Assembly: GCA_030426845.1 (NCBI GenBank)
Contig: JAUHXR010000067.1
Span: 1 to 32,862 of the forward strand
Reading direction: 5' to 3'
From: Polyangia bacterium
GTDB taxonomy: Bacteria; Myxococcota_A; Polyangia; Polyangiales; Sandaracinaceae
Length of the DNA stretch: 32,862 nucleotides
The notes under the pieces were generated by a model. That model did no database searches, was not told where the DNA came from, and saw only the letters and a program-made list of their open reading frames with translations. Below, piece by piece: positions 7,392 to 25,820 of this stretch. Positions within the stretch are counted from its first letter, which is position 1, and every line of letters starts with the position of its first letter. The position numbers and the translations under genes are program-made.

Positions 7392-9172
7392 CGGCGTCCC
7401 CTTCCGAGCCGCGGCGCGAAGGGGCGCGCGAAGGCCGGGAGCGCGTCGATCGCGAACGGCCCGCGCGCGACGCGCTCGCGCGGCAGGTCGAGCCACACGT
7501 CCCGGTAGAAGTTGGACCACACGGGGTGGGGGCGGTAGTTGCGCACGTAAGGTTGCCAGAGCTCGTACGCGACGTCGCTGAAGATGAACGCCCACGGCGC
7601 GTCGGCGACGATCTGCTCGGAGGCCTGGTGGTAGAGCGCGAGGCGCCGCTCGCGGTCGCGCTCGACGCGGGCCTCGTCGAGGAGACGGTCGACCTCCGGG
7701 CTCGCGTAGAAGGACTTGTTCATCGAGTCGGTCGGCCGGCGCGAGCGGCTGTGGAACAGGATGTCGAGGAAGTTCGAGGCGTCGGGGTAGTCCATCGACC
7801 AGCCGGCGAACCAGGACTGGACGGTGCCGCGGGTGCCCGTCTGCTGCAGGAACATCGGGAACGCGACCTGGCGGATCTCGACCTCGATCCCGATCGCCGC
7901 GAGGTCGGACTGGACGAGCTCGCCGTAGAACCGGCCCGTGTCGCCCTCGCCGGTCCAGAAGGTCACCGGCTCGTCGAGCCCGTCGGGGTGGCCGGCGAGC
8001 CGCATCTCCTCGCGCGCGCGATCGAGGTCGTAGACGTGGGCGCCCGGCAGATCGGGGTCGTAGCCCGGGAGCGTGCTCGGGATGGGCTGGCCGGTGAGGG
8101 CCATGCGGCCCGCGCGCGAGCGCAGCCAGCGCGGGCGGTTGATGCAGTAGGCCACCGCGCGGCGGACGTGGACGTCGTCGAAGGGCGGCAGCTCGACGTT
8201 CATGCCGACGCCGCGGATGATCGTGTCGACCGCCTGGACCGAGTAGGGCTCCCACGCGGGCTGGCTGCGCAGCTCGAGGTAGTCCGCGAGCGGCATGCGG
8301 TGGAGGTGGTCGACCTCGCCGTTGCGGAAGCGCATCGTCGCGGTGCCGCGGTCGAGGTTGAGCTCGAAGACCACGCGCTCGGGGTAGGGCTGCCCCTCGT
8401 CGGCGAGGAAGTAGTTGGGGTTGCGCGTGAACGTGAGGCCGATGCCCGGCTCCCAGCGCTCCAGCACGTAGGCGCCCGTGCCGACCGGGTTGCGGTTCAC
8501 GTCCGCGCCGTAGTGGGCGTAGGCCTCGCGCGGGACGGGGTAGGCGAAGGGCATCGCCATCGCGAAGAGGAACGTCTGATCCGGCCGGCTCAGCGTGATG
8601 TCCACGGTGTAACGGTCGACCACGCGGATGCCGCGCACGTGGCTCGCGTCGCCGGCGCGGAACTCCTCGTAGCCGTCGATCAGCTCGTAGAAGGTGACGC
8701 CGGGGCTCCCGGTGGCCGGGTCGAGCATGTGCTCGAGCGACCAGCGGATGTCGTCGGCGACGATCTCGCGCCCGCGCCCGCCCTCGAAGACCACGGAGTC
8801 GGCGAAGCGGAGCCCGCGCCGCAGCCGGAAGCGGAACGTGCGGCCGTCCTCGGACACGTCGGGCAGCGATTCGGCGAGGCGGGGGACCAGCTCGAGCGTG
8901 TCGCGCTCGTAGTCGAGGAGGCCCTCGAAGAGGAGCTTGATGGCCTGGTTGGAGAGCGCGTCGAAGCGGGTGTGCGGGTCGGTCCCTCGCAGCCCCGTCT
9001 CGTGCCAGACGACGAGCGTCCCGCCGCGCTGCGGGGTCTCGTTGCCGGCCCCCATGTACCGAGGCCCGTCGGGCGCGTCCGGGAGGGTGGCGGCGACCAC
9101 CGCGGAGGCGACCGCGAGGATCACGAGGCCCGCGACCCCGGCCACGCTCTCACTCCTTCGGGTCGAGCGCAT
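7388..9172 (-). CDS. ABC importer solute-binding protein, family 5 (peptide/nickel type)
   Basis: This encodes 594 aa. It is an extracytoplasmic binding protein that hands its ligand to the two permeases encoded around it. The N-terminus (SVAGVAGLVILAVASAVVAATL) is a hydrophobic export signal or membrane anchor; no lipobox Cys is seen. The mature part has the family 5 pattern: GGTLVVWHETGLRGTDPH, LFEGLLDYERDTLELVPRLAES, FRLRRGLRFADS, VGTGAYVLERWEPG and a C-terminal YPDASNFLDILFHS segment. It overlaps the upstream DppC-like gene by 23 bp and the downstream permease gene by 4 bp. The ligand cannot be read from the sequence; oligopeptides are the family default. A binding protein placed between the two permease genes is less usual than one at the front. 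Confidence 0.92.
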   Translation of the reverse strand: MRSTRRSESVAGVAGLVILAVASAVVAATLPDAPDGPRYMGAGNETPQRGGTLVVWHETGLRGTDPHTRFDALSNQAIKLLFEGLLDYERDTLELVPRLAESLPDVSEDGRTFRFRLRRGLRFADSVVFEGGRGREIVADDIRWSLEHMLDPATGSPGVTFYELIDGYEEFRAGDASHVRGIRVVDRYTVDITLSRPDQTFLFAMAMPFAYPVPREAYAHYGADVNRNPVGTGAYVLERWEPGIGLTFTRNPNYFLADEGQPYPERVVFELNLDRGTATMRFRNGEVDHLHRMPLADYLELRSQPAWEPYSVQAVDTIIRGVGMNVELPPFDDVHVRRAVAYCINRPRWLRSRAGRMALTGQPIPSTLPGYDPDLPGAHVYDLDRAREEMRLAGHPDGLDEPVTFWTGEGDTGRFYGELVQSDLAAIGIEVEIRQVAFPMFLQQTGTRGTVQSWFAGWSMDYPDASNFLDILFHSRSRRPTDSMNKSFYASPEVDRLLDEARVERDRERRLALYHQASEQIVADAPWAFIFSDVAYELWQPYVRNYRPHPVWSNFYRDVWLDLPRERVARGPFAIDALPAFARPFAPRLGRGRR

Positions 9173-10244
9173 CGCGCAGCCCTTCGCCGAGGAGGTTGAA
9201 GCCGAACACGGTGAGCACGATGAGCGCGCCCGGCAGCAGCAGGAGGCGTGGCTCGTACTGGAGGTAGTCCGCGCCGTCGCGCAGCATGCTCCCCCAGCTC
9301 GCGATGGGTGGCTTCACGCCGACGCCCAGGTAGCTCATCGCGGACTCCACGATGATGATGTTGGCGACCATCGTGGTCGCGATGACGATCGCGGGGCCGA
9401 GCACGTTGGGGAGGAGGTGCTGGACGATGATGCGTCCGTCGCTCGCCCCGAGCGCGCGTGCGGCCTGGACGTACTCGAGCTCGCGCACCTGCAGCACCTT
9501 CGCGCGGGTCACGCGGGCGAGGGTGGTCCAGCTCAAGAGGCCGAGCAGGAGACAGAGCCAGAAGAGCGACGGGTCGTCGATGACGCGGTTGAGCGCGATC
9601 GCGACCAAGAGGAAAGGCAGCGACAGGACGAAGTCGACCAGGCGCATGATCGCGACGTCGATCGCGCCGCGGTAGTAGCCGCTGACGAGGCCGGCGCCGA
9701 AGCCGAGCAGCCCGGCGAGGAAGACCGCGCCGAGGGCGACCGAGAGCGACACCCGGCCGCCGTAGAGGAGCCGTGAGAGCTCGTCGCGGCCGATGTTGTC
9801 GGCGCCGAGCAGGAACGTCCCGTCCTCGACGTGGCTCATCGGGCCCACCGGCACGCCCGCGTCCGTCAGGCCGGCGTCGTAGATCGCGTCGGGGTGGAAG
9901 GGCGCCGCGAGCGGGCCCACGAACCCGATCAGGACGACGAGCACCACGAGGGCGCCGCCGACCACCGCGCCACGGTTGCGGGTGAAGCGGCGCCAGGCCC
10001 GCGGGTCTGCGAACGAGACCCCGTCGCGCCGGGTGACGTAGACGAGCGCGAGGGCCCCGGGCAGGAGGAGGGTGACGCCCATCCAGGGCAGGGCATCGCG
10101 GTCCCAGGGGCGCCACTCGACCTCGAACGCCGGCAGCGCAAGGAGGCCGAGACCAGCGAGCACCGCCGCCGTCGCGAGCCGCTGCAGCCAGGGGCTCGCC
10201 TCCGGAGCCTCCGCGGGGACACCGCGACCGCCGCTCGTGGCCAT
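9150..10244 (-). CDS. ABC peptide-type importer permease, DppC/OppC-like
   Basis: This encodes 364 aa and is the second permease half of the importer. It is longer than a usual DppC (about 300 aa) because it begins with two extra hydrophobic segments (LATAAVLAGLGLLALPAF and MGVTLLLPGALALVYV) ahead of the standard OppC N-terminal region, RRFTRNRGAVVGGALVVLVVL. The typical motifs follow: HPDAIYDAGL, LGADNIGRDELSRLLYGGRVSL, the ATPase-contact loop EYVQAARALGASDGRIIVQH, and the end GEGLRDALDPKE, which is diagnostic for this family. It is the first gene of the operon. A good promoter lies directly upstream, with its -10 only 7 nt before the ATG. Confidence 0.93.
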   Translation of the reverse strand: MATSGGRGVPAEAPEASPWLQRLATAAVLAGLGLLALPAFEVEWRPWDRDALPWMGVTLLLPGALALVYVTRRDGVSFADPRAWRRFTRNRGAVVGGALVVLVVLIGFVGPLAAPFHPDAIYDAGLTDAGVPVGPMSHVEDGTFLLGADNIGRDELSRLLYGGRVSLSVALGAVFLAGLLGFGAGLVSGYYRGAIDVAIMRLVDFVLSLPFLLVAIALNRVIDDPSLFWLCLLLGLLSWTTLARVTRAKVLQVRELEYVQAARALGASDGRIIVQHLLPNVLGPAIVIATTMVANIIIVESAMSYLGVGVKPPIASWGSMLRDGADYLQYEPRLLLLPGALIVLTVFGFNLLGEGLRDALDPKE

Positions 10245-15966: not shown

Positions 15967-17187
15967 CTACTGCTGGACGATCACGATGGTCGCGTCGTCG
16001 GTGAAGCGGATCGCGCCGTTCTCGCCGCCGCAGCTCCAGCAGGTGCTCCACAGCAGCTCGCCCCGGGTGGCCGGATCGCGGAGGATCGCGAAGGAGGTCT
16101 CCGGCTCCTCGACCACGAAGCTCGCGGCGTGCAGGAAGCGGTCGCCGCCCATCGGGTAGAGCGCGACGAGGAGCGCGGCGTCGGCGGTGCGGCCGGAGAC
16201 GATCCAGACCTCCTCGCCCACCGAAGGGGACCACGCGAAGGGCGCCGTGGCCAGCTCCCAGTGCATCTCCTCCACCGTGGCCCCGCCGCGCGCGAGCGCC
16301 TGGACCCCGGCCGACTCGCCGGCGACCTCGAAGCCCTCGGCGAAGCGGGCGAGCGGCTCGATCGACGCGAAGATCGCGCGCCAGCGGTCCGGCGGCACGT
16401 CGAGCTCGCGGAACTGCCGGCGCAGGCCCACGTCCGGGTAGCTCGCCTCCGAGCGCGCGCCGCCGCAGCAGCGGAACGCGAGGGCGCGCCCGCCTCCGGC
16501 CGGGTTGACCGCGTGGCGCGTCCCACAACGATGGGCGGCCGGGCTGTCCTCGGGCCGCCCGCCGCGCGCGACCGCCGTCCGCTCGAGCACCGCGAGGCGC
16601 GGTGGCGCGTCGCTCGCGGTCCACTCCGGGGCGCGCACGCCGAGATCGAGCACGCCGTCCGGGGAGGCGCAGGCGGTGACGTCCTCGAGGCAGGCGGCGA
16701 CGTCGAGCTCCTCGCCGGTCGCGAAGCTCGCCTCGCCGTCTCCGCGGCACGCCCGCTCCCACTCCAGCTCGTCGCAGAGCCGGCGCCCCTCGGCCTCGCA
16801 CAGGGCCTGCGCCTCGCGGCGGGTGGCCGCAAGGGTGGGGGGACGCGCGGGATCGTTCGGGTAGGGCAGCCGATCGATGTCGAACCCGTCGAGCTCGATC
16901 GGCGCCAGGTCCGCCTCGACCGACGGACGACGCCCGGGCAGGCCCGGTCGGCTGCCGGCGCGCAGGGCCCCCGCGGGGATCGAGACGACCTCACCCGCCC
17001 GCGGCGGCGCGACCGCGGGGCGCGCGGGGGTGGGCGGCGGCGGCGGTGAGGGCGTAGCCACCGCCACCGCGGACGGAGGCGTGGGAGGCGGCGCCGCCCG
17101 AGGCCCGGCGTCGACGGCGGCCGAGGGCGTGGAGCAGCCCGCCCCGAGGAGGGCGAGCACCAGCCGGAGGGTGGTCAGGCGTCGCAC
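15967..17187 (-). CDS. Lipoprotein with FGE-sulfatase-like domain and extra C-terminal domain
   Basis: This encodes 406 aa, starting at a GTG (complement of 17185-17187). The signal MRRLTTLRLVLALLGAGC suggests lipidation at Cys18. A Pro/Ala-rich linker follows to about residue 65. Residues about 66-240 resemble the formylglycine-generating-enzyme (FGE/SUMF1) fold: VVSIPAGALRAGS, ELDGFDIDRLPYPND, TRREAQALCEAEGRRLCDELEWERACRG, and a late ALAFRCCGG where the family ends GFRC. The fold is often used structurally, and the catalytic Cys pair cannot be confirmed here. Residues about 245-406 are an additional domain with paired Cys (STCWSCGGENG) that I do not recognise. TAGGGT lies 6 nt before the GTG. 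Confidence 0.78.
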   Translation of the reverse strand: MRRLTTLRLVLALLGAGCSTPSAAVDAGPRAAPPPTPPSAVAVATPSPPPPPTPARPAVAPPRAGEVVSIPAGALRAGSRPGLPGRRPSVEADLAPIELDGFDIDRLPYPNDPARPPTLAATRREAQALCEAEGRRLCDELEWERACRGDGEASFATGEELDVAACLEDVTACASPDGVLDLGVRAPEWTASDAPPRLAVLERTAVARGGRPEDSPAAHRCGTRHAVNPAGGGRALAFRCCGGARSEASYPDVGLRRQFRELDVPPDRWRAIFASIEPLARFAEGFEVAGESAGVQALARGGATVEEMHWELATAPFAWSPSVGEEVWIVSGRTADAALLVALYPMGGDRFLHAASFVVEEPETSFAILRDPATRGELLWSTCWSCGGENGAIRFTDDATIVIVQQ

Positions 17188-18592: not shown

Positions 18593-19063
18593 ATGAGCGA
18601 GCAGCCGAGCGAAGACGTCCAGCGCGCGATCGGGTTCGTCGAGGCGACGATCGCGGCCCTCGGCATCGACCCGGCCAAGACGCGCCACCGGCGCGAAGGC
18701 CACTGCACCTACGCGCTGCGGCGCGGCAGCGCGCGCATCCTCGTCGCGGTGCACGCCCCGAACGCGTCGCTCGCCGAGGGGCGGCTCCGGGTGGTGGCGC
18801 CGGTGATCCGTCTCGTCGGCGATCCGGCGGAGCCAGCGGATCCGGCGCTGCTCCGGTTCCTCCTCGAGGCGAACGCGCGCGATCTCGTGGGCGCGGCCTT
18901 CGGCATCAGCGGGCCGGACGTCGTGGTCGTGGCCGAGCGCGCGGTGCGCGATCTCGACCGCTCGGAGGTCGAGGCGATGATCCGCAACGTGGGTCGCGCC
19001 GCCGACCGCTACGACGACGAGCTGTCCCGGGTGTTCGGCGCCCCGCGCGCTTCGGACGTCTGA
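18593..19063 (+). CDS. YbjN-like / type III chaperone-fold protein
   Basis: This encodes 156 aa. The ATG at 18593 follows GAGGG and is preferred to an upstream in-frame ATG that overlaps the divergent gene. The order of a helix (DVQRAIGFVEATIAALGI), a run of strands (HCTYALRRGSARILVAVHAP, LRVVAPVIRLVG), a helix (DPALLRFLLEANARDLVGAAFG), a strand (PDVVVVAERAV) and a final long helix is the pattern of YbjN and CesT-type secretion chaperones. This is a fold-level call, without sequence search support. It has no signal peptide, so it should be cytosolic. Its TGA is immediately followed by the GTG of the barrel gene, so the two are translated together. Confidence 0.7.
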   Translation: MSEQPSEDVQRAIGFVEATIAALGIDPAKTRHRREGHCTYALRRGSARILVAVHAPNASLAEGRLRVVAPVIRLVGDPAEPADPALLRFLLEANARDLVGAAFGISGPDVVVVAERAVRDLDRSEVEAMIRNVGRAADRYDDELSRVFGAPRASDV

Positions 19064-20455
19064 GTGCCGCGGCTCGGTTGGGCGTCGTTCGTGATCCTCG
19101 GGGGGCTCGCCCTGGCTGCGCCCGCGCGGGCGTTCGACGTGCAGCTCGACACCGACACGAGCTTCCAGATCTACGAGGTGCGATCGCCCACCGCGCGGGC
19201 GTTCATGGCGCGTCGTCGGCTGCTCTCGCGGCTCGGGGTGCGGATGACCCACGATCTCACCGAGCCGGCGGCGGACGGCTCGGCGATCCGCCTCCTCGCG
19301 GAGGGGCAGCTGCGGCTCGAGCAGGACTTCGGCGAGACCTGCCTCCTCGACCGTGAGCTCTGCGTGGTCGCGGTGGACGCCGACGACGCGGGCGCGTGGC
19401 AGCCCCTCGCGGCGGACACCCGGCTCGACGTGCCCTCGCTCTGGGTGGGGGTCAGCGGCCTGCCCCTCGGGGTCACCGCGCGCCTCGGGCGTCAGCTCGC
19501 GCTCGACACGATCGGCTTCGCGCGCTTCGACGGTCTGTCGCTCCAGAGCGCGCCGGTGCGCTGGCTGCGGCTCGAGGCGTTCGGCGGGATGCTGGTGCGC
19601 GGCACCTCGCTCGCCGGGACCTCGCGCAGCGACCCGCAAGGCTCGATCCGCCTCGACACCGAGCGTGACGTCCCCTGGGCGGCGCGGCCGTCGGACACCT
19701 GGGTGCTCGGCGCGCGCCTCAGCGGCGGTCCGGGGCGGCTCCTGTCGCTCTCGATCGGCTACCGCTACATGTGGGACGGCGACGGCGAGGTGATGTCTCG
19801 GATCTCGGCCGGCGCCTCGAGCCAGCCCGCGCCCTGGCTGCGCCTCGACGCCAACGCGGTGGTCGACCTCTTCACCGAAGAGGTCATCGAGGCGCGCGGC
19901 ACCGTCCGGCTGGGGGAGGGCGCGGTGGTCGGGCACGCGCAGGCGTCGCGGCACGTGCCGCGCTTCGACCCGGGGACCATCTGGGCGTGGTTCGCGGTCG
20001 CGCCGATCAACCTGGCCGAGGTGGGCGCGCGCTGGGAGGTCAACGACGACGTCTCGATGGGCGGGGCGATCAAGGGCCGCTACGCCGAGCTCAGCGACGG
20101 CGAGGACCTCGACGCGGGCCTCGACGGGTGGCTGCGGGCCCGCTGGGAGGGGGTGCGGTTCACCTGGACCGGGTTCGTGTGGTCCGGCGCGCTCGGCCCG
20201 CTCGCGGGGGTGCACCTCGGGGCGCGGCGGCCGATCCTCGGGTGGCTCGAGCTGGGGCTCGCGGTCAACGTCTGGTACTTCGAGGACCCGAACCGCCAGG
20301 ATCTCTCGGGCGTGGTGCTCAACGAGGTCCTGGAGGGCCGCTTTCGGATCAGCCCCGAGACGCTGGTCGTGACCGAGCTGCAACACGCCACGAGCCGGGT
20401 GGTCGGCCACCGCTTCCGCGGCCTCGTCGCCCTTCGGGTGGAGACCTGGCCGTGA
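19064..20455 (+). CDS. Exported outer-membrane beta-barrel-like protein
   Basis: This encodes 463 aa. The GTG directly abuts the preceding stop codon. A signal peptide is clear (SFVILGGLALAAPARA, cleavage after about residue 23). The mature part is free of hydrophobic helices and consists of alternating strand-like segments with aromatic girdles (LLSLSIGYRYMW, GTIWAWFAVAPINLAEVGARWEV, LGLAVNVWYFED), ending FRGLVALRVETWP. This is typical of an outer-membrane barrel, perhaps 16-20 strands. It has only two Cys (ETCLLDRELC), probably a loop disulfide, and no heme motif. Its gene overlaps the 13-heme cytochrome gene by 4 bp, so a porin-like partner for the cytochrome is the best guess. It is shorter than MtrB (about 700 aa), and homology to it is not shown. 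Confidence 0.78.
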   Translation: MPRLGWASFVILGGLALAAPARAFDVQLDTDTSFQIYEVRSPTARAFMARRRLLSRLGVRMTHDLTEPAADGSAIRLLAEGQLRLEQDFGETCLLDRELCVVAVDADDAGAWQPLAADTRLDVPSLWVGVSGLPLGVTARLGRQLALDTIGFARFDGLSLQSAPVRWLRLEAFGGMLVRGTSLAGTSRSDPQGSIRLDTERDVPWAARPSDTWVLGARLSGGPGRLLSLSIGYRYMWDGDGEVMSRISAGASSQPAPWLRLDANAVVDLFTEEVIEARGTVRLGEGAVVGHAQASRHVPRFDPGTIWAWFAVAPINLAEVGARWEVNDDVSMGGAIKGRYAELSDGEDLDAGLDGWLRARWEGVRFTWTGFVWSGALGPLAGVHLGARRPILGWLELGLAVNVWYFEDPNRQDLSGVVLNEVLEGRFRISPETLVVTELQHATSRVVGHRFRGLVALRVETWP

Positions 20456-21678
20456 GGCTCCGGGCGAGCCTGCTCCTCGGCGCGACCCTCGCGGCGGCGC
20501 TGCTCGCGGTGGGCCTCGGGCTGCGCGCGGGCGCGGCCGGCCAGGCGCGTCCTCCGGCCGCGGCGCTGCGCGAGCGGCCCCCCGACCGGCACGGCCCCTC
20601 GCCGATCGTCTATCCGCCGCAGCGCATCGCGATCCGGATGGACCACTCCCTCGACGCCCACCGGCAGCTCCGGTGCGTGCGGTGCCATCAGGGCGCGGGG
20701 CTCAGCCAGCGGGCGCGCGACCTGCTGCTGCCGCGCGAGGCGAGCTGCGCGCCGTGCCACGACGAGGAGCTCGATCGGGACGGGCCCGATCGCGAGGCGC
20801 GCTGCGGAACCTGCCACGTCGGCTACACCGAGGGGGCGCCGCCGGCGGTCACCGATCTGCCCACCGCGCGGCTCCGCTTCTCGCACCGGACCCACGTGGA
20901 GCGCGGCGTCCGCTGCCGGACGTGCCACGAGGGGGTGGAGCGCGCGGGCCAGGCCGACCGGCGGCACCTGCCGCGGATGCGCCAGTGCTTCGAGTGCCAT
21001 GGGCCCGAGGGCTTCGCGGCCGAGGCGAGCGCGAGCGGGCGCTGCGAGACCTGCCACCTGACCCGCCCGGACGGCGTGCTCCGGACGCGCTTCGCCGAGG
21101 GCACGATGAACCCGCCCGACTGGCTCTTCGGCATGCGCCACGATCACGAGTGGCTCGTGCGGCACCGGTGGGTCGCGGCCGATCAGGGCGGCGCCTGCGC
21201 GAGCTGCCATCAGGAGTCCGACTGCGCCGACTGCCACGACGGGCGCGTGCGGCCGCGGCGTGTGCACCCGGGAGACTACTTGACGACCCACGTCGCCGAG
21301 GCGCGGCGGGATCAGCCGCGATGCCAGAGCTGCCACACGACCGCGCGCTTCTGCACGGAGTGCCACGCGCGCCTCGGGCTCGCCTCGATCGCGGCGCCCG
21401 ATGTTCGCTCGGCCGCGCCCTATCACCCGCCGGCCGCGGTCTGGACCGAGGGGCCGAACCTCCACGCGCTCGAGGCGCAGCGCGCGATGAACGCATGCGC
21501 GAGCTGCCACGCGGAGCGCGACTGCGTTCAGTGCCACGGATCGCTCGGGATCGGGGCGGGGGTGAGCCCGCACGGTCCCGGGTTCGCCAGCCAGTGCCGC
21601 GCCGCGCTCGAGCGGAACCCGCGGGCCTGCGCGACCTGTCACGGAGACGTGGCGGCGCTCCGCGGTCGCTGCCTCTGA
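20452..21678 (+). CDS. 13-heme c-type cytochrome, periplasmic
   Basis: This encodes 408 aa. The start is a GTG overlapping the barrel stop (GTGA). The N-terminus RLRASLLLGATLAAALLAVGLGLRAGA is a signal peptide or anchor. Thirteen CXXCH heme-attachment motifs begin at residues 75, 99, 118, 155, 179, 198, 249, 258, 291, 301, 349, 358 and 393. Many extra His (FSHRTH, MRHDHEWLVRH, RRVHPGDYL) can serve as distal ligands, as in multiheme cytochrome c3/c7-like electron wires. The last six motifs before the final one form three close pairs. MtrA-type cytochromes have 10 hemes in about 330 aa, so the heme density is similar. It likely moves electrons through the envelope with the barrel protein; direction and donor are unknown. 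Confidence 0.93.
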   Translation: MRLRASLLLGATLAAALLAVGLGLRAGAAGQARPPAAALRERPPDRHGPSPIVYPPQRIAIRMDHSLDAHRQLRCVRCHQGAGLSQRARDLLLPREASCAPCHDEELDRDGPDREARCGTCHVGYTEGAPPAVTDLPTARLRFSHRTHVERGVRCRTCHEGVERAGQADRRHLPRMRQCFECHGPEGFAAEASASGRCETCHLTRPDGVLRTRFAEGTMNPPDWLFGMRHDHEWLVRHRWVAADQGGACASCHQESDCADCHDGRVRPRRVHPGDYLTTHVAEARRDQPRCQSCHTTARFCTECHARLGLASIAAPDVRSAAPYHPPAAVWTEGPNLHALEAQRAMNACASCHAERDCVQCHGSLGIGAGVSPHGPGFASQCRAALERNPRACATCHGDVAALRGRCL

Positions 21679-21711: not shown

Positions 21712-23097
21712 TCAGCTCCGCCCGGGGTCCGTGTCGGGGACGACGATGCCCGGGTGGGTGTCGCTCGGGTGATGGGCGCGCGGCCGGGTGGGCTCGTTGG
21801 GCACTCCGTCGTCGCCGGGATCGCTCGTCTCCGCCGTGTCGGCGCTCGGCTCCGAGCCGGGTGGCATCGTGTCGGGGGCCCTGGGCCGCTGGGTCGGCGC
21901 GTCGAGCATCTCGATCTGGCTCTCGCTCAGCTCGATCAGGCCGGTCGGTGGATCGAAGCCCTCGTCCCACGGGTCGTGGACCTGGGAGCCCGGGACGAGC
22001 AGATCGTAGACCTGGCGGATCCGCCGCCGGCGCGCGCCGGAGCTGAGCTCGTCCCGAACGCGCTGGTACGCGGCCGAGGCGACGCGCTCGCGGAGGCCCG
22101 CGTCGCGGAGGACCTCGAGGACCGCGTCGGCCAGCGCGCTGTCCGAGCCGGCGGGGTAGAGCAACCCTTCGACCTCGTCGCGAACGAGCTCGGTCACCCC
22201 GGGGACGTCGGCGACCACCACCGGCCGCAGGCACGCCATGTACTCGAGCAGCGGCTGGGGCAGGGGCGAGATGCCGTCGTGGGTGCGCGCGGCCGCGGGG
22301 GCGACGCAGACGTCGGCCGCCGCGACCACGCCCGCGATCTGATGCGGCTTGGGCTCGCCGCGCACCGACACCACGTCGGCTAGCTTTGCTTCGCGCACCT
22401 GCGCGCGCACGGCCTCGCGGCGCTCGTCGTCCGCCTCGCCCGCGATGAGCACCCGCACCGGACGCACCGCGCGGATCTTGGCCACCGCGCTCAGCAGCGT
22501 CGGCAGATCGCGGCCCTCCGAGAACGGGCCGAGGTAGAGGAGCCGCGGGATCGAGAAGGGACCCGTCTGGCCGAAGTCGAAGTCCCCCACGTCGACGCCC
22601 GGTCGGACCACGTCGACCGCGGCCCGCCCGTTCAGCGGCTTGGCGGAGGCGTTGCTGCTCACGAGCACCCGCCCCGCGGCCTGCAGGGTGATCCGGTGCG
22701 CGTCGAGCCAGTCGCGCTCCTCGTCCGGGTCCGGGAAGGTCGCCACCTCGTACACGAGGAGGGCGCTCGATCGCCGGCGGGGGTGCGTGGCCGCGACCTT
22801 GCCCGCCCACGGATCGAACACGTGCACGACGTGATACGTCTCCGAGTCGAGCTGCCGCGCGACCGCGCGCATGTACAGGCTGCGGCGCTCCTCGGCGCTG
22901 GCTTTGGCGACCGGGACGCGGAACATGCGGGCGCCCGCCATGCGCTGGACGTGCGGCAGGTTCTCGGTCTTGAGGGTGACGAGGTCCAGCTCGGCCCGGA
23001 GGCCGTGGATCATGGAGGCCATCGCGGACCCGTGCGCGCTGGCGCCCGGGACGGCGGCGAAGGCCGCGCCGAGGACCCGGATCCGAGCGCCTCCCAT
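21712..23097 (-). CDS. Glycosyltransferase, GT-B fold, family 4-like
   Basis: This encodes 461 aa and probably transfers a sugar from a nucleotide-sugar donor to a glycan or lipid acceptor. The N-terminal Rossmann half begins RIRVLGAAFAAVPGASAHGSA. The C-terminal donor-binding half has PRLLYLGPFSEGRDLPTLL, VLIAGEADDERREAVRAQ, IAGVVAAADVCVAPA and the conserved LPQPLLEYMACLRPVVVADVPGVTEL, where family 4 has its E-x7-E region. After about residue 375 comes a disordered acidic/Pro-rich tail of about 85 residues (DTMPPGSEPSADTAE...), unusual for the family. TAGCTT lies 6 nt before the ATG. Nothing near it suggests a specific polysaccharide locus. Confidence 0.85.
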   Translation of the reverse strand: MGGARIRVLGAAFAAVPGASAHGSAMASMIHGLRAELDLVTLKTENLPHVQRMAGARMFRVPVAKASAEERRSLYMRAVARQLDSETYHVVHVFDPWAGKVAATHPRRRSSALLVYEVATFPDPDEERDWLDAHRITLQAAGRVLVSSNASAKPLNGRAAVDVVRPGVDVGDFDFGQTGPFSIPRLLYLGPFSEGRDLPTLLSAVAKIRAVRPVRVLIAGEADDERREAVRAQVREAKLADVVSVRGEPKPHQIAGVVAAADVCVAPAAARTHDGISPLPQPLLEYMACLRPVVVADVPGVTELVRDEVEGLLYPAGSDSALADAVLEVLRDAGLRERVASAAYQRVRDELSSGARRRRIRQVYDLLVPGSQVHDPWDEGFDPPTGLIELSESQIEMLDAPTQRPRAPDTMPPGSEPSADTAETSDPGDDGVPNEPTRPRAHHPSDTHPGIVVPDTDPGRS

Positions 23098-23191: not shown

Positions 23192-23446
23192 GTGAAAGAG
23201 CTCGCTCGCTTTCTTCTGCAGAATTGTCAGCTCGACTTCTCGGGCGAAGTGACGATCGAGCAGATTCGTCAGTTTCTTCGTGACGACGACTCGCGTGAGG
23301 CGCGAGCGCTCCTGTCCAAGCTCATCGAGGACAAGGGCGTGGACGACATGCTGGTCGTCGTCGCCGACTGCCTCAAGGAGCACATCCCGAACGGGATCAA
23401 CGAGGACACGATCCGCCAGCAGCTCTCGTTCTACACGGAGAGCTGA
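23192..23446 (+). CDS. Conserved-looking small acidic protein of unknown function
   Basis: This encodes 84 aa. The GTG is preceded by a strong ribosome-binding site (GGAGGA). It has no signal peptide. Its sequence is helical and amphipathic (VKELARFLLQNCQLDF, IEQIRQFLRDDDSREARALL, VDDMLVVVADCLKEHI). Base composition is lower in GC than in neighbouring genes (for example TTT, CTT, AAT, CAG and ATT codons near the start). I do not recognise a family. It lies four bases upstream of the apparent CTG start of the next gene, so the two are likely co-translated. Confidence 0.7.
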   Translation: MKELARFLLQNCQLDFSGEVTIEQIRQFLRDDDSREARALLSKLIEDKGVDDMLVVVADCLKEHIPNGINEDTIRQQLSFYTES

Positions 23447-23450
23447 GGTC

Positions 23451-24242
23451 CTGCGCCGGCTCGGCGTCGTCCTCGCGCTCCTGAGCGTGGGCTGCGACGT
23501 GCCGCCGGCCCGCGACGCCGACGGCCCGGTGGTCCTGGCCAGCGATCCGATGCCCGGCGACGTGGACGTCGACCGGGCGGCGTCGTTTCGCGTGTTCTTC
23601 GATCGCCCCGTGCTGCCCCGGGACGTCCGGCGCGGCCGGGTGGTGGTGCGGAGCGGCGGCCGGTCCGCGTTCCTCTCGGCGTGGTTCGATCCCGTCGAGC
23701 GGGTGATGCACGTCGAGAACCTCCTGCCGCCGCTCGACCCGGACGTCGGCTACCGGCTCGTCGTGGAGGGCGTGCGTGATCTCGAGCGGCGCCCGATGGC
23801 CGACGCGTACACCGCGCCGTTCACCACCGGTGCAGAGGCCCGAGGCACCCCGACCCCGCTGGCCGGCTGGGCCGACGTCGCTCCGATCCTCGCTCGCTGT
23901 GCGGCTGACGGCTGCCACGGCGGCGCGACCCCGGCGCTCGGCCTCGATCTGTCGAGCGGGGCCGGGGTCGAGGCGACCGCGATCGGGGTCGCCGCGCGCC
24001 AGACCCGGGTCGGCACCCAGGACGACACCGTGTGGTCGGGGGCGAGCACGCTCGACGGCCTCGCCCGGATCGACGTCGTCGGCGGGGTGGGGCGACCCTC
24101 TCGGAGCTACCTCCTCTACAAGGTGATCGGGGACCCCCACGCGGCCGGATCGGTCATGCCGCCGCCCCCCGACGATCCGCTGACGGCGGACGAGCAGGGG
24201 CGGCTGAGCCGCTGGATCCGGGCCGGCGCGCCCACGCTCTGA
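23451..24242 (+). CDS. Lipoprotein: Ig-like domain plus cytochrome-like domain (CX4CH)
   Basis: This encodes 263 aa. No ATG, GTG or TTG is available in frame at the right place; a CTG at 23451, just after the preceding TGA, gives LRRLGVVLALLSVGC, a short lipoprotein signal (Cys15). Residues about 26-128 look like a bacterial Ig-like (Big_5/SbsA) domain: SDPMPGDVDVDRAASFRVFFDRPV, LVVEGVRDLERRPM. The C-terminal half has the layout of mono-heme c-type domains on myxobacterial lipoproteins (LARCAADGCHGGATPALGLDL, SYLLYKVIGDP, GSVMPPPPDDPLTADEQ, IRAGAPTL), with a possible Met axial ligand in VMP. The heme site is CX4CH (Cys150, Cys155, His156) instead of CX2CH, so heme binding is plausible but unproven. 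Confidence 0.75.
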   Translation: MRRLGVVLALLSVGCDVPPARDADGPVVLASDPMPGDVDVDRAASFRVFFDRPVLPRDVRRGRVVVRSGGRSAFLSAWFDPVERVMHVENLLPPLDPDVGYRLVVEGVRDLERRPMADAYTAPFTTGAEARGTPTPLAGWADVAPILARCAADGCHGGATPALGLDLSSGAGVEATAIGVAARQTRVGTQDDTVWSGASTLDGLARIDVVGGVGRPSRSYLLYKVIGDPHAAGSVMPPPPDDPLTADEQGRLSRWIRAGAPTL

Positions 24243-24317: not shown

Positions 24318-25220
24318 ATGCGGACGGATTCCCGACTCCCCTGGCTGGCCGTCGTCCTCCTGGGGATGATGTCCCTGGGCGCGAGCTGCAGCGGCGGCTC
24401 GGATGGTGACGGCGACCCCGGCTCCGGCGGCGAGCGCCCCGAGCCGGCCGAGGAGACCCCCCGGGTCGAGAGCCTCGACGCGGTCGACGTCTCCGAGCTG
24501 ACCCGGGCCGAGCAGCGGGTCTGGGTCGAGCTGATCAACGACCAGCTCTCGCCCTGCGGCGAGCCGATCAGCGTCGGTCGCTGCGTGGCCGAGGAGCGGA
24601 GCTGCCGCAGCTGCGTGCCCGCGTCGCGCTACCTCGTGCGCCTCATCCAGGAGGGCTACGAGCGTCAGGAGATCGAGGAGCTCTACGGCCTGCGCTACGA
24701 CGAGGATCAGGCGGTCGAGATCGCGACCGAGGGCTCGCCGAGCCGCGGATCGCAGATGGCGCCGGTCACGATCGTCGAGTTCAGCGACTTCGAGTGCCCC
24801 TATTGCGGCCGCGCTCATCCGATCGTCCAGCAGCTCCTGCGCGAGTTCGAGGGGCGGGTTCGCGTGGTGTTCAAGCACTACCCGCTGAGCGCGCACCCGC
24901 ACGCGATGCCGGCCGCGCGCGCCGCGGTGGCGGCGGGCAACCAGGACCAGTTCTGGCCCATGCACGACCTGCTGTTCGAGCACCAGCGCCAGCTCGAGGA
25001 GGAGGACCTGATCGGCTACGCCGAGCAGCTCGGCCTCGACATGGATCGCTTCCGCGCGGACATGGCGGCGACCGAGACGCAGGACCGGGTCGAGGCGGAC
25101 AAGGACGCGGGCCGCGAGGCCGGCGTAGAGGGGACGCCGACGTTCTTCGTGAACGGGCGGCGCTTCCGCGAGCCGCCGTCCTCCCTCGCCGCCTACGTGC
25201 GGGAGGCGCTCGACCAGTAG
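24318..25220 (+). CDS. DsbA-like thiol oxidoreductase with extra Cys-rich N-terminal domain
   Basis: This encodes 300 aa and is exported (signal LAVVLLGMMSLGASC, possibly lipidated at Cys24). Residues about 145-298 form a DsbA/thioredoxin-4 domain: VTIVEFSDFECPYCGRAHP with the active-site CPYC (Cys160, Cys163), VVFKHYPLSAHPHAM, and the cis-Pro loop GTPTFFVNGRRF. Such proteins exchange disulfides in the periplasm. Residues about 72-130 are a separate segment with four Cys (80, 89, 96, 99) and LVRLIQEGYERQEIEELYGLRY, whose shape recalls the CcmH heme-lyase subunit helix pair; this resemblance is inference. A TlpA/ResA-like gene follows 78 bp downstream. Confidence 0.9.
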   Translation: MRTDSRLPWLAVVLLGMMSLGASCSGGSDGDGDPGSGGERPEPAEETPRVESLDAVDVSELTRAEQRVWVELINDQLSPCGEPISVGRCVAEERSCRSCVPASRYLVRLIQEGYERQEIEELYGLRYDEDQAVEIATEGSPSRGSQMAPVTIVEFSDFECPYCGRAHPIVQQLLREFEGRVRVVFKHYPLSAHPHAMPAARAAVAAGNQDQFWPMHDLLFEHQRQLEEEDLIGYAEQLGLDMDRFRADMAATETQDRVEADKDAGREAGVEGTPTFFVNGRRFREPPSSLAAYVREALDQ

Positions 25221-25298: not shown

Positions 25299-25820
25299 AT
25301 GAGCAGGATGTCCAGGTTCACCCCCCGCGTTTCCTTCGCCCTCGCGCTCGCCGCGGTCCTCATGATCGCAGGCAGCGCCTTCGCGCTGAACACCGGCGCC
25401 CGCGCTCCCGAGATCGGGCTGCGCGATCTGAACGGCCGCAACGTCACGATGGCCTCGCTGCGCGGCAAGGTCGTGCTCGTGGACTTCTGGGCGTCGTGGT
25501 GCGAGCCCTGCGCCGAGGAGTTCCCGGTGCTCGAGCGGCTCTACAACCGCTACCGCGAGCAGGGCTTCACGGTGGTCGCGGTCTCGCAGGACCGCACCGC
25601 GGACAACATGCAAGGGTTCCTGCGCCAGCACCGCGCGAGCTTCCCGGTGGTGCTCGACTCGAACCACGCGGTCGCGGGGCGCTACAGCCCGCCCCGCATG
25701 CCCTCCAGCTACATCATCGATCGCACGGGCGTCGTGCGGCACGTCCACGAGGGCTTCCGCTCGAGCGACGCGGCGGTCTTCGAGCGCGAGATCCGCGCGC
25801 TCCTCCAGCAGGGCAACTGA
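25299..25820 (+). CDS. TlpA/ResA-like periplasmic thioredoxin
   Basis: This encodes 173 aa. The signal peptide (SFALALAAVLMIAGSAFA, cleavage before LNTG) places it in the periplasm. The thioredoxin-fold core is APEIGLRDLNGRNVTMASLRGK, VVLVDFWASWCEPCAEEF with active-site CEPC (Cys68, Cys71), then GFTVVAVSQDRT, and MPSSYIIDRTGVVRHVHEGF with the cis-Pro. ResA/CcmG/TlpA proteins reduce disulfides, often on apocytochrome c before heme is attached. GGAGG at 25292 lies 2 nt before the ATG at 25299 and 11 nt before a second ATG at 25308, so the exact start is unsure. With the DsbA-like gene upstream it forms a thiol-redox pair. Confidence 0.92.
   Translation: MSRMSRFTPRVSFALALAAVLMIAGSAFALNTGARAPEIGLRDLNGRNVTMASLRGKVVLVDFWASWCEPCAEEFPVLERLYNRYREQGFTVVAVSQDRTADNMQGFLRQHRASFPVVLDSNHAVAGRYSPPRMPSSYIIDRTGVVRHVHEGFRSSDAAVFEREIRALLQQGN

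Follow-up and report, generated by a model that had tools for sequence, protein, structure and literature searches.

Extracellular electron transfer is usually tied to metal reducers. The closest described systems, the porin-cytochrome (Pcc) clusters, combine barrels of 18-22 strands with periplasmic cytochromes of 5-14 hemes; an outer-membrane c-type cytochrome is usual but not obligatory, and atypical CX3-15CH motifs occur in these outer-membrane cytochromes (Shi et al. 2014, PMC4245776). Two-gene Pcc clusters, with cytochromes of 338-344 aa and 12 or 14 hemes, have been described in Kuenenia and in Anaeromyxobacter, where they are called 'Group IV' (PMC4245776). In this study, we analysed a 32,862-nt stretch (contig JAUHXR010000067.1, positions 1 to 32,862 of the forward strand, assembly GCA_030426845.1; hereafter the window) from a soil bacterium of the Sandaracinaceae that is related to predatory myxobacteria. 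We read a barrel gene, a 13-heme cytochrome gene and a more distant gene for a Big_5 lipoprotein as the three parts of a porin-cytochrome conduit that would span the outer membrane, and put the probability of this reading at about 0.8. An earlier inspection of the letters alone (the sequence-only reading) had suggested that the type might be undescribed and its lineage one without known extracellular respiration; the first idea is tempered by the Pcc of Anaeromyxobacter, a member of the same phylum (PMC4245776), whereas our search of the literature on myxobacterial conduits and multiheme cytochromes found no report for the Polyangiales.

The barrel-cytochrome pair

The features of the locus, in window coordinates, are as follows.
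18593-19063, + strand: YbjN/TY-chaperone-like cytosolic protein, 156 aa (PF10722, E 3.8e-9)
19064-20455, + strand: predicted outer-membrane beta-barrel protein, 463 aa (AlphaFold2 model, conserved adjacency)
20452-21678, + strand: 13-heme c-type cytochrome, 408 aa (13 CxxCH, Cytochrome_C7 Pfam)
20584-21066, + strand: N-terminal six-heme ActA-like domain of the cytochrome, about residues 45-205 (VIA, profile matches)
21094-21675, + strand: C-terminal seven-heme module of the cytochrome, about residues 215-408 (seven-heme forms elsewhere)
21712-23097, - strand: glycosyltransferase group 1 gene, not part of the conduit (Glyco_trans_1_4, E 9.7e-24)
23192-23446, + strand: 84-aa protein, not conduit-specific (present regardless of the conduit)
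about 23451-24242, + strand: Big_5 monoheme lipoprotein, putative third conduit part (co-occurrence; Big_5, E 7.9e-6)

Re-reading the coordinates gave the same three-gene layout that had been described from the letters: the stop codon of the YbjN-like frame (TGA, 19061-19063) is followed directly by the GTG of the barrel gene at 19064, and the stop of the barrel frame (TGA, 20453-20455) forms a GTGA overlap with the GTG start of the cytochrome gene at 20452.

The pair was surveyed in 379 Myxococcota genomes, 237 of them of good quality, and in a Polyangiales sample of 97. The sampled genomes are mostly metagenome assemblies, and the gene calls of neighbouring loci, made by a simple codon-position script, are usable as maps only. 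Profile searches found both genes in 58 of the 97 Polyangiales, the barrel alone in two and the cytochrome alone in five; each of these seven single-gene genomes either has its match close to a contig end or is incompletely assembled. Of 80 loci of named genomes, from hosts such as Sorangium cellulosum, Polyangium, Minicystis, Labilithrix and Sandaracinaceae, both genes were found in 78, the contig being cut in the other two, and 78 of the 80 cytochrome loci encode 13 hemes. Phylum-wide, 149 of the 379 genomes matched the barrel profile and 144 the cytochrome profile (E 1e-40), with 116 of the 237 good-quality genomes matched in each case. The cytochrome gene follows the barrel gene at 38 of 40 loci outside the Polyangiales (the contig ends at the other two), and this order is constant across the Polyangiales and the other classes of the phylum. 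Such recurrence is far beyond chance. Barrel and cytochrome distances correlate (r 0.78), and the cytochrome tree, in which the window's type is separate from a second family described below, is compatible with mainly vertical descent. The pair, whose loss in relatives would have spoken against a conduit, is thus kept across the phylum.

The barrel protein carries a Sec-type signal, MPRLGWASFVILGGLALAAPARA, followed by FD. Its AlphaFold2 model, built from an alignment of 38 homologues, has a mean pLDDT (predicted local distance difference test) of 86 and a pTM (predicted template modelling score) of 0.78, and pLDDT drops below 50 in the signal peptide and a single loop only. Its 22 strands, each of nine residues or more, span residues 24-459; their number lies within the range given for Pcc porin-like proteins, and there is no plug domain. 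The signal and the model agree with the sequence-only reading, which had taken the 463-aa product for an exported barrel-like protein smaller than MtrB: the predicted barrel is large and unplugged, with a backbone diameter that standard barrel geometry puts at about 40 Å (22 strands), against 47 Å for the 26 strands of MtrB. The objection that had been named in advance, a protein without a pore of sufficient width for the cytochrome, is thus not borne out by the model. The protein matched no Pfam or NCBIfam family, weak OMP_b-brl matches occur in 6 of the 38 homologues, and a PDB sequence search returned no relatives. The proposed hidden Markov model comparison with MtrB and PioB placed the barrel outside their family, PF11854 having no match in the barrel, in its 38 homologues (E 0.1) or in 28 related genomes. 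By structure (Foldseek and VIA-align against the PDB), the model resembles the pilus ushers PapC and FimD (Z 14-19), and it aligns with the MtrB chain 6r2q_B at Z 16.0 over 385 residues, the longest of the alignments listed. On the strength of the model, the barrel may be the sheath of a conduit.

The cytochrome has exactly the 13 CxxCH motifs counted earlier. All 13 motif histidines are conserved across 39 homologues and 10 further, non-motif histidines are invariant in the same set, which suggests bis-His hemes of the electron-transfer type. The protein has a Sec signal, no lipobox and a Cytochrome_C7 Pfam match (E 1.3e-17). Its 13 motifs fall within the Pcc definition (an exported c-type cytochrome with 5-14 CX2CH, its gene beside a porin gene), and here the two genes overlap. 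The heme count differs, as had been remarked, from the 10 of MtrA; the 13 hemes, and an NCBIfam search (E 1) in which TIGR03508, the decaheme family, gave no match, place the protein outside the MtrA/PioA/DmsE decahemes. A match to MtrA itself (6r2q_A, E 2e-4) covered fewer than 50 residues and was not used. A plasmid search with the cytochrome gave no match, and apparent in-frame stops in some profile matches proved to be overruns of the normal stop (checked in L268) and not recoding.

The cytochrome appears to have two halves. Residues 41-203, with six hemes, resemble the ActA chains of Alternative Complex III (ACIII; VIA Z 4.9-6.1), and the N-terminal domain has profile matches to 6lod, 6f0k, 8k9e, 6btm and 3ov0. 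A whole-model structure search matched this ActA-like half only, the seven-heme half not being probed by that search. At three loci outside the Polyangiales (L240, L241 and L243), the barrel gene is followed by a shorter seven-heme protein that matches profile positions 181/188-366 only. Judged from these sequences, the C-terminal seven-heme module is the invariant companion of the barrel, and because the shorter forms beside a barrel keep only this module, the seven-heme half probably sits inside the barrel.

The usher likeness of the barrel suits a different explanation, that there is no wire across the membrane at all, the cytochrome storing or relaying electrons in the periplasm and the barrel serving as a common porin or a secretion pore, for example for the lipoprotein. 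A 13-heme protein could act as a periplasmic capacitor, and the barrel-cytochrome complex is a putative one. We nevertheless consider this explanation very unlikely, given that the shorter cytochromes retain exactly the one module beside the barrel, that barrel, cytochrome and lipoprotein are inherited and lost together, and that the homologous second family sits with large multiheme cytochromes. As regards the pair, the electron-conduit reading is well supported by the comparisons above: it has gained a barrel fold and conservation of the two genes, although, as described in the next section, it has lost the YbjN-like protein as a member.

The Big_5 lipoprotein and the neighbouring genes

About 1.8 kb downstream of the cytochrome gene, beyond the glycosyltransferase gene on the opposite strand, lies a lipoprotein gene overlooked in the sequence-only reading. 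The glycosyltransferase gene splits the conduit cluster into two halves in the Sandaracinaceae; the Sorangium locus L118 lacks it and has an unbroken cluster, and in Sorangium and many others the 84-aa gene and the lipoprotein gene lie directly 3' of the cytochrome gene. The lipoprotein contains an immunoglobulin-like (Ig-like) Big_5 domain and the heme motif CAADGCH (CX4CH, about 23898-23918), and its family shares an invariant lipobox Cys, a conserved heme motif C(X2-5)CH and a near-invariant Met-Pro toward the C terminus. Its start codon is uncertain; CTG at 23451 fits the signal peptide LRRLGVVLALLSVGC.

Full-length lipoprotein is confined to genomes with the conduit: 60 Polyangiales genomes have it, against none of the 32 in which the conduit is missing; the five genomes with a conduit and no lipoprotein are contig-broken or incomplete. 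Co-occurrence holds even when the genes are unlinked: the lipoprotein gene is about 420 kb from the conduit on one contig of G037, and both are present on different contigs in G013, G049, G053 and G043. At two loci, L250 (G009) and L251 (G077), the barrel, cytochrome and lipoprotein genes are all missing while the YbjN, glycosyltransferase and 84-aa genes stand in their usual order; other sampled members of the G009 genus carry the conduit. This joint loss with the neighbours kept means that, as far as gene content tells, the conduit unit is barrel, cytochrome and lipoprotein, with YbjN excluded.

The YbjN-like protein had been proposed as the third partner. Its fold assignment was borne out (PF10722, 37.3 bits against a cut-off of 22; PF22551, 30.8 against 27; matches to TY-Chap1, E 2.6e-7, and CesT_Tir_1), but its partnership was not: of 65 conduit genomes 38 lack the gene, G004, G009 and G077 have it but no conduit, and it persists at both natural deletions, a distribution that rules it out as a functional partner. 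It is probably co-transcribed with the barrel and cytochrome genes, yet no core part. The 84-aa protein, whose gene precedes that of the lipoprotein at the loci that were read, at first looked like a conduit part and was dropped once 88 of the 97 Polyangiales genomes proved to have it, including 28 that lack the conduit. It has a constant length, 73% mean column identity over 23 sequences, usually one copy per genome and no Pfam family over the cut-off.

Directly upstream of the barrel, loci of other orders encode secreted proteins that carry a single heme motif (L225) or three PSCyt1-like domains (L227); their monoheme domain is of the lipoprotein's kind, which speaks for the three-part conduit. 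In L221 a gene for a CCP_MauG diheme peroxidase-like lipoprotein (9153-10148) lies directly after the conduit cytochrome gene. The conduit might serve a specific surface or periplasmic redox enzyme instead of general respiration; this enzyme would be the lipoprotein, or some other partner in other families. The almost one-to-one co-occurrence of the Big_5 lipoprotein with the conduit and the CCP_MauG neighbour would agree with this, but the lipoprotein has no recognised catalytic domain and the CCP_MauG gene stands in one locus only, and such a dedicated role seems to us unlikely.

Several other genes adjoin the cluster. Downstream of the lipoprotein gene are those for a DsbA-like lipoprotein (24318-25220) and a TlpA-like thioredoxin (25299-25820), both of which stay where the conduit has been lost (L251, L257, L258 and L261). 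The - strand at 15967-17187 encodes a protein that resembles a lipoprotein and has an FGE-sulfatase-type domain; this neighbour is conserved in the Sandaracinaceae. In some lineages outside the Polyangiales the conduit stands beside a minor pilin gene cluster (L234:8368-14501, L240:8350-14501 and L241:304-3127); in L234 and L240 it is divergent from that cluster, which is followed by a large PilY1-like gene.

Path and direction of electrons

We propose that the three-part conduit would work as follows. Quinol oxidation at the inner membrane would feed periplasmic carriers, from which the six-heme ActA-like domain, reaching into the periplasm, would collect electrons. The 22-strand barrel would form an insulating sheath filled by the seven-heme module, and the lipoprotein, with its one c-type heme, would be a docking or terminal subunit at one mouth, most likely the outer one, a position held by MtrC or OmcB in known systems. 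This division of labour between the two halves of the cytochrome, like the outward direction that we favour and the physiological acceptor, is inferred. An ACIII-type gene set (pentaheme ActA-like protein and NrfD) is present on another contig (C56) of the same genome. NapC/NirT, considered as a quinol-side partner, was set aside, being absent from the window's genome and family.

Electrons might instead run inward, from an outside source such as Fe(II), humics or another cell to the periplasm, as in MtoAB or PioAB. Sorangium and Polyangium are aerobes, a lifestyle that would suit this direction. Clusters for Fe(II) oxidation, moreover, often lack a large surface cytochrome (PMC4245776), and the only candidate outer partner here has one heme. 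The N-terminal domain of the cytochrome, however, resembles the quinol-side ActA, and the second family travels with NapC/NirT, a quinol oxidiser; inward flow is improbable in our judgement.

Several points weigh against the three-part, outward conduit. The cytochrome was modelled without hemes, with low confidence at 264-371 in the seven-heme half; its insertion into the barrel is putative, and the evidence is all computational. Among the 22-24-strand structures that match the barrel, most are ushers and other barrels unrelated to electron transfer. NapC/NirT is missing from the window's genome, and one heme is few for a terminal cytochrome. The near-invariant Asp at position +2 of the lipoprotein is an ambiguous guide to its location: Asp+2 keeps lipoproteins in the inner membrane in E. 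coli, whereas the inner-membrane signal reported for Myxococcus xanthus is Lys+2 (PMC3222651). Finally, the co-occurrence counts ignore kinship, yet joint absence is seen inside four families (f1, f4, f9 and f12).

More tentatively, and with less than even confidence, we suggest that this is a phylum-wide conduit of predominantly aerobic predatory myxobacteria, with a 13-heme wire, a 22-strand barrel and a single-heme Ig-like lipoprotein end, which might export electrons under local oxygen limitation or on contact with prey or self-made redox mediators. The gene pair is present in about half of the good-quality Myxococcota genomes in the sample, and in Sorangium and Polyangium; if it does form a conduit, many predators of soil and sea would keep an electrical link through the outer membrane. 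Since natural deletions and near one-to-one co-occurrence define its parts, the system is testable in cultured strains.

Relation to known conduits

A second, homologous family of adjacent barrel and 12-13-heme cytochrome genes in the same order (L268-L281) is present in Polyangiales and other Myxococcota (G101, G106, G122, G248, G015, G022, G025, G040, G051, G063 and G086). Both its barrel (24-56 bits with the window's profile) and its cytochrome (117-144 bits) are related to those of the window, but its cytochromes form a clade of their own (support 98), measure 340-370 aa against 408 aa and in several cases have a lipobox-like N terminus, which the window's protein lacks. Its operons include 12-34-heme cytochromes of the Geobacter CxxxxCH/CxxCH type (TIGR01904) and, at several loci, NapC/NirT. 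In size and heme count it matches the published Anaeromyxobacter Pcc, and it looks like a classical metal-reducer conduit in myxobacteria.

The conduit of the window shares with MtrCAB, MtoAB and PioAB a barrel, the fold of which matches MtrB, and a periplasmic multiheme cytochrome, as well as, in the case of Mtr, a lipoprotein. It differs from them in having 22 and not 26 strands, 13 and not 10 hemes and a monoheme in place of a decaheme lipoprotein, and its proteins match neither PF11854 nor TIGR03508. ActA of ACIII is similar to cytochrome residues 41-203 but lacks the seven-heme half and is a subunit of an inner-membrane complex. The Anaeromyxobacter Pcc, from the same phylum, likewise has an 18-22-strand barrel and a 12-14-heme periplasmic cytochrome; its cytochrome is 338-344 aa in length against 408 aa, and the window's system adds the Big_5 monoheme lipoprotein. 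Because the second family, its kin, matches the published Pcc numbers, the system of the window appears best filed with the Pcc kind, by kinship and through comparison with the published description.

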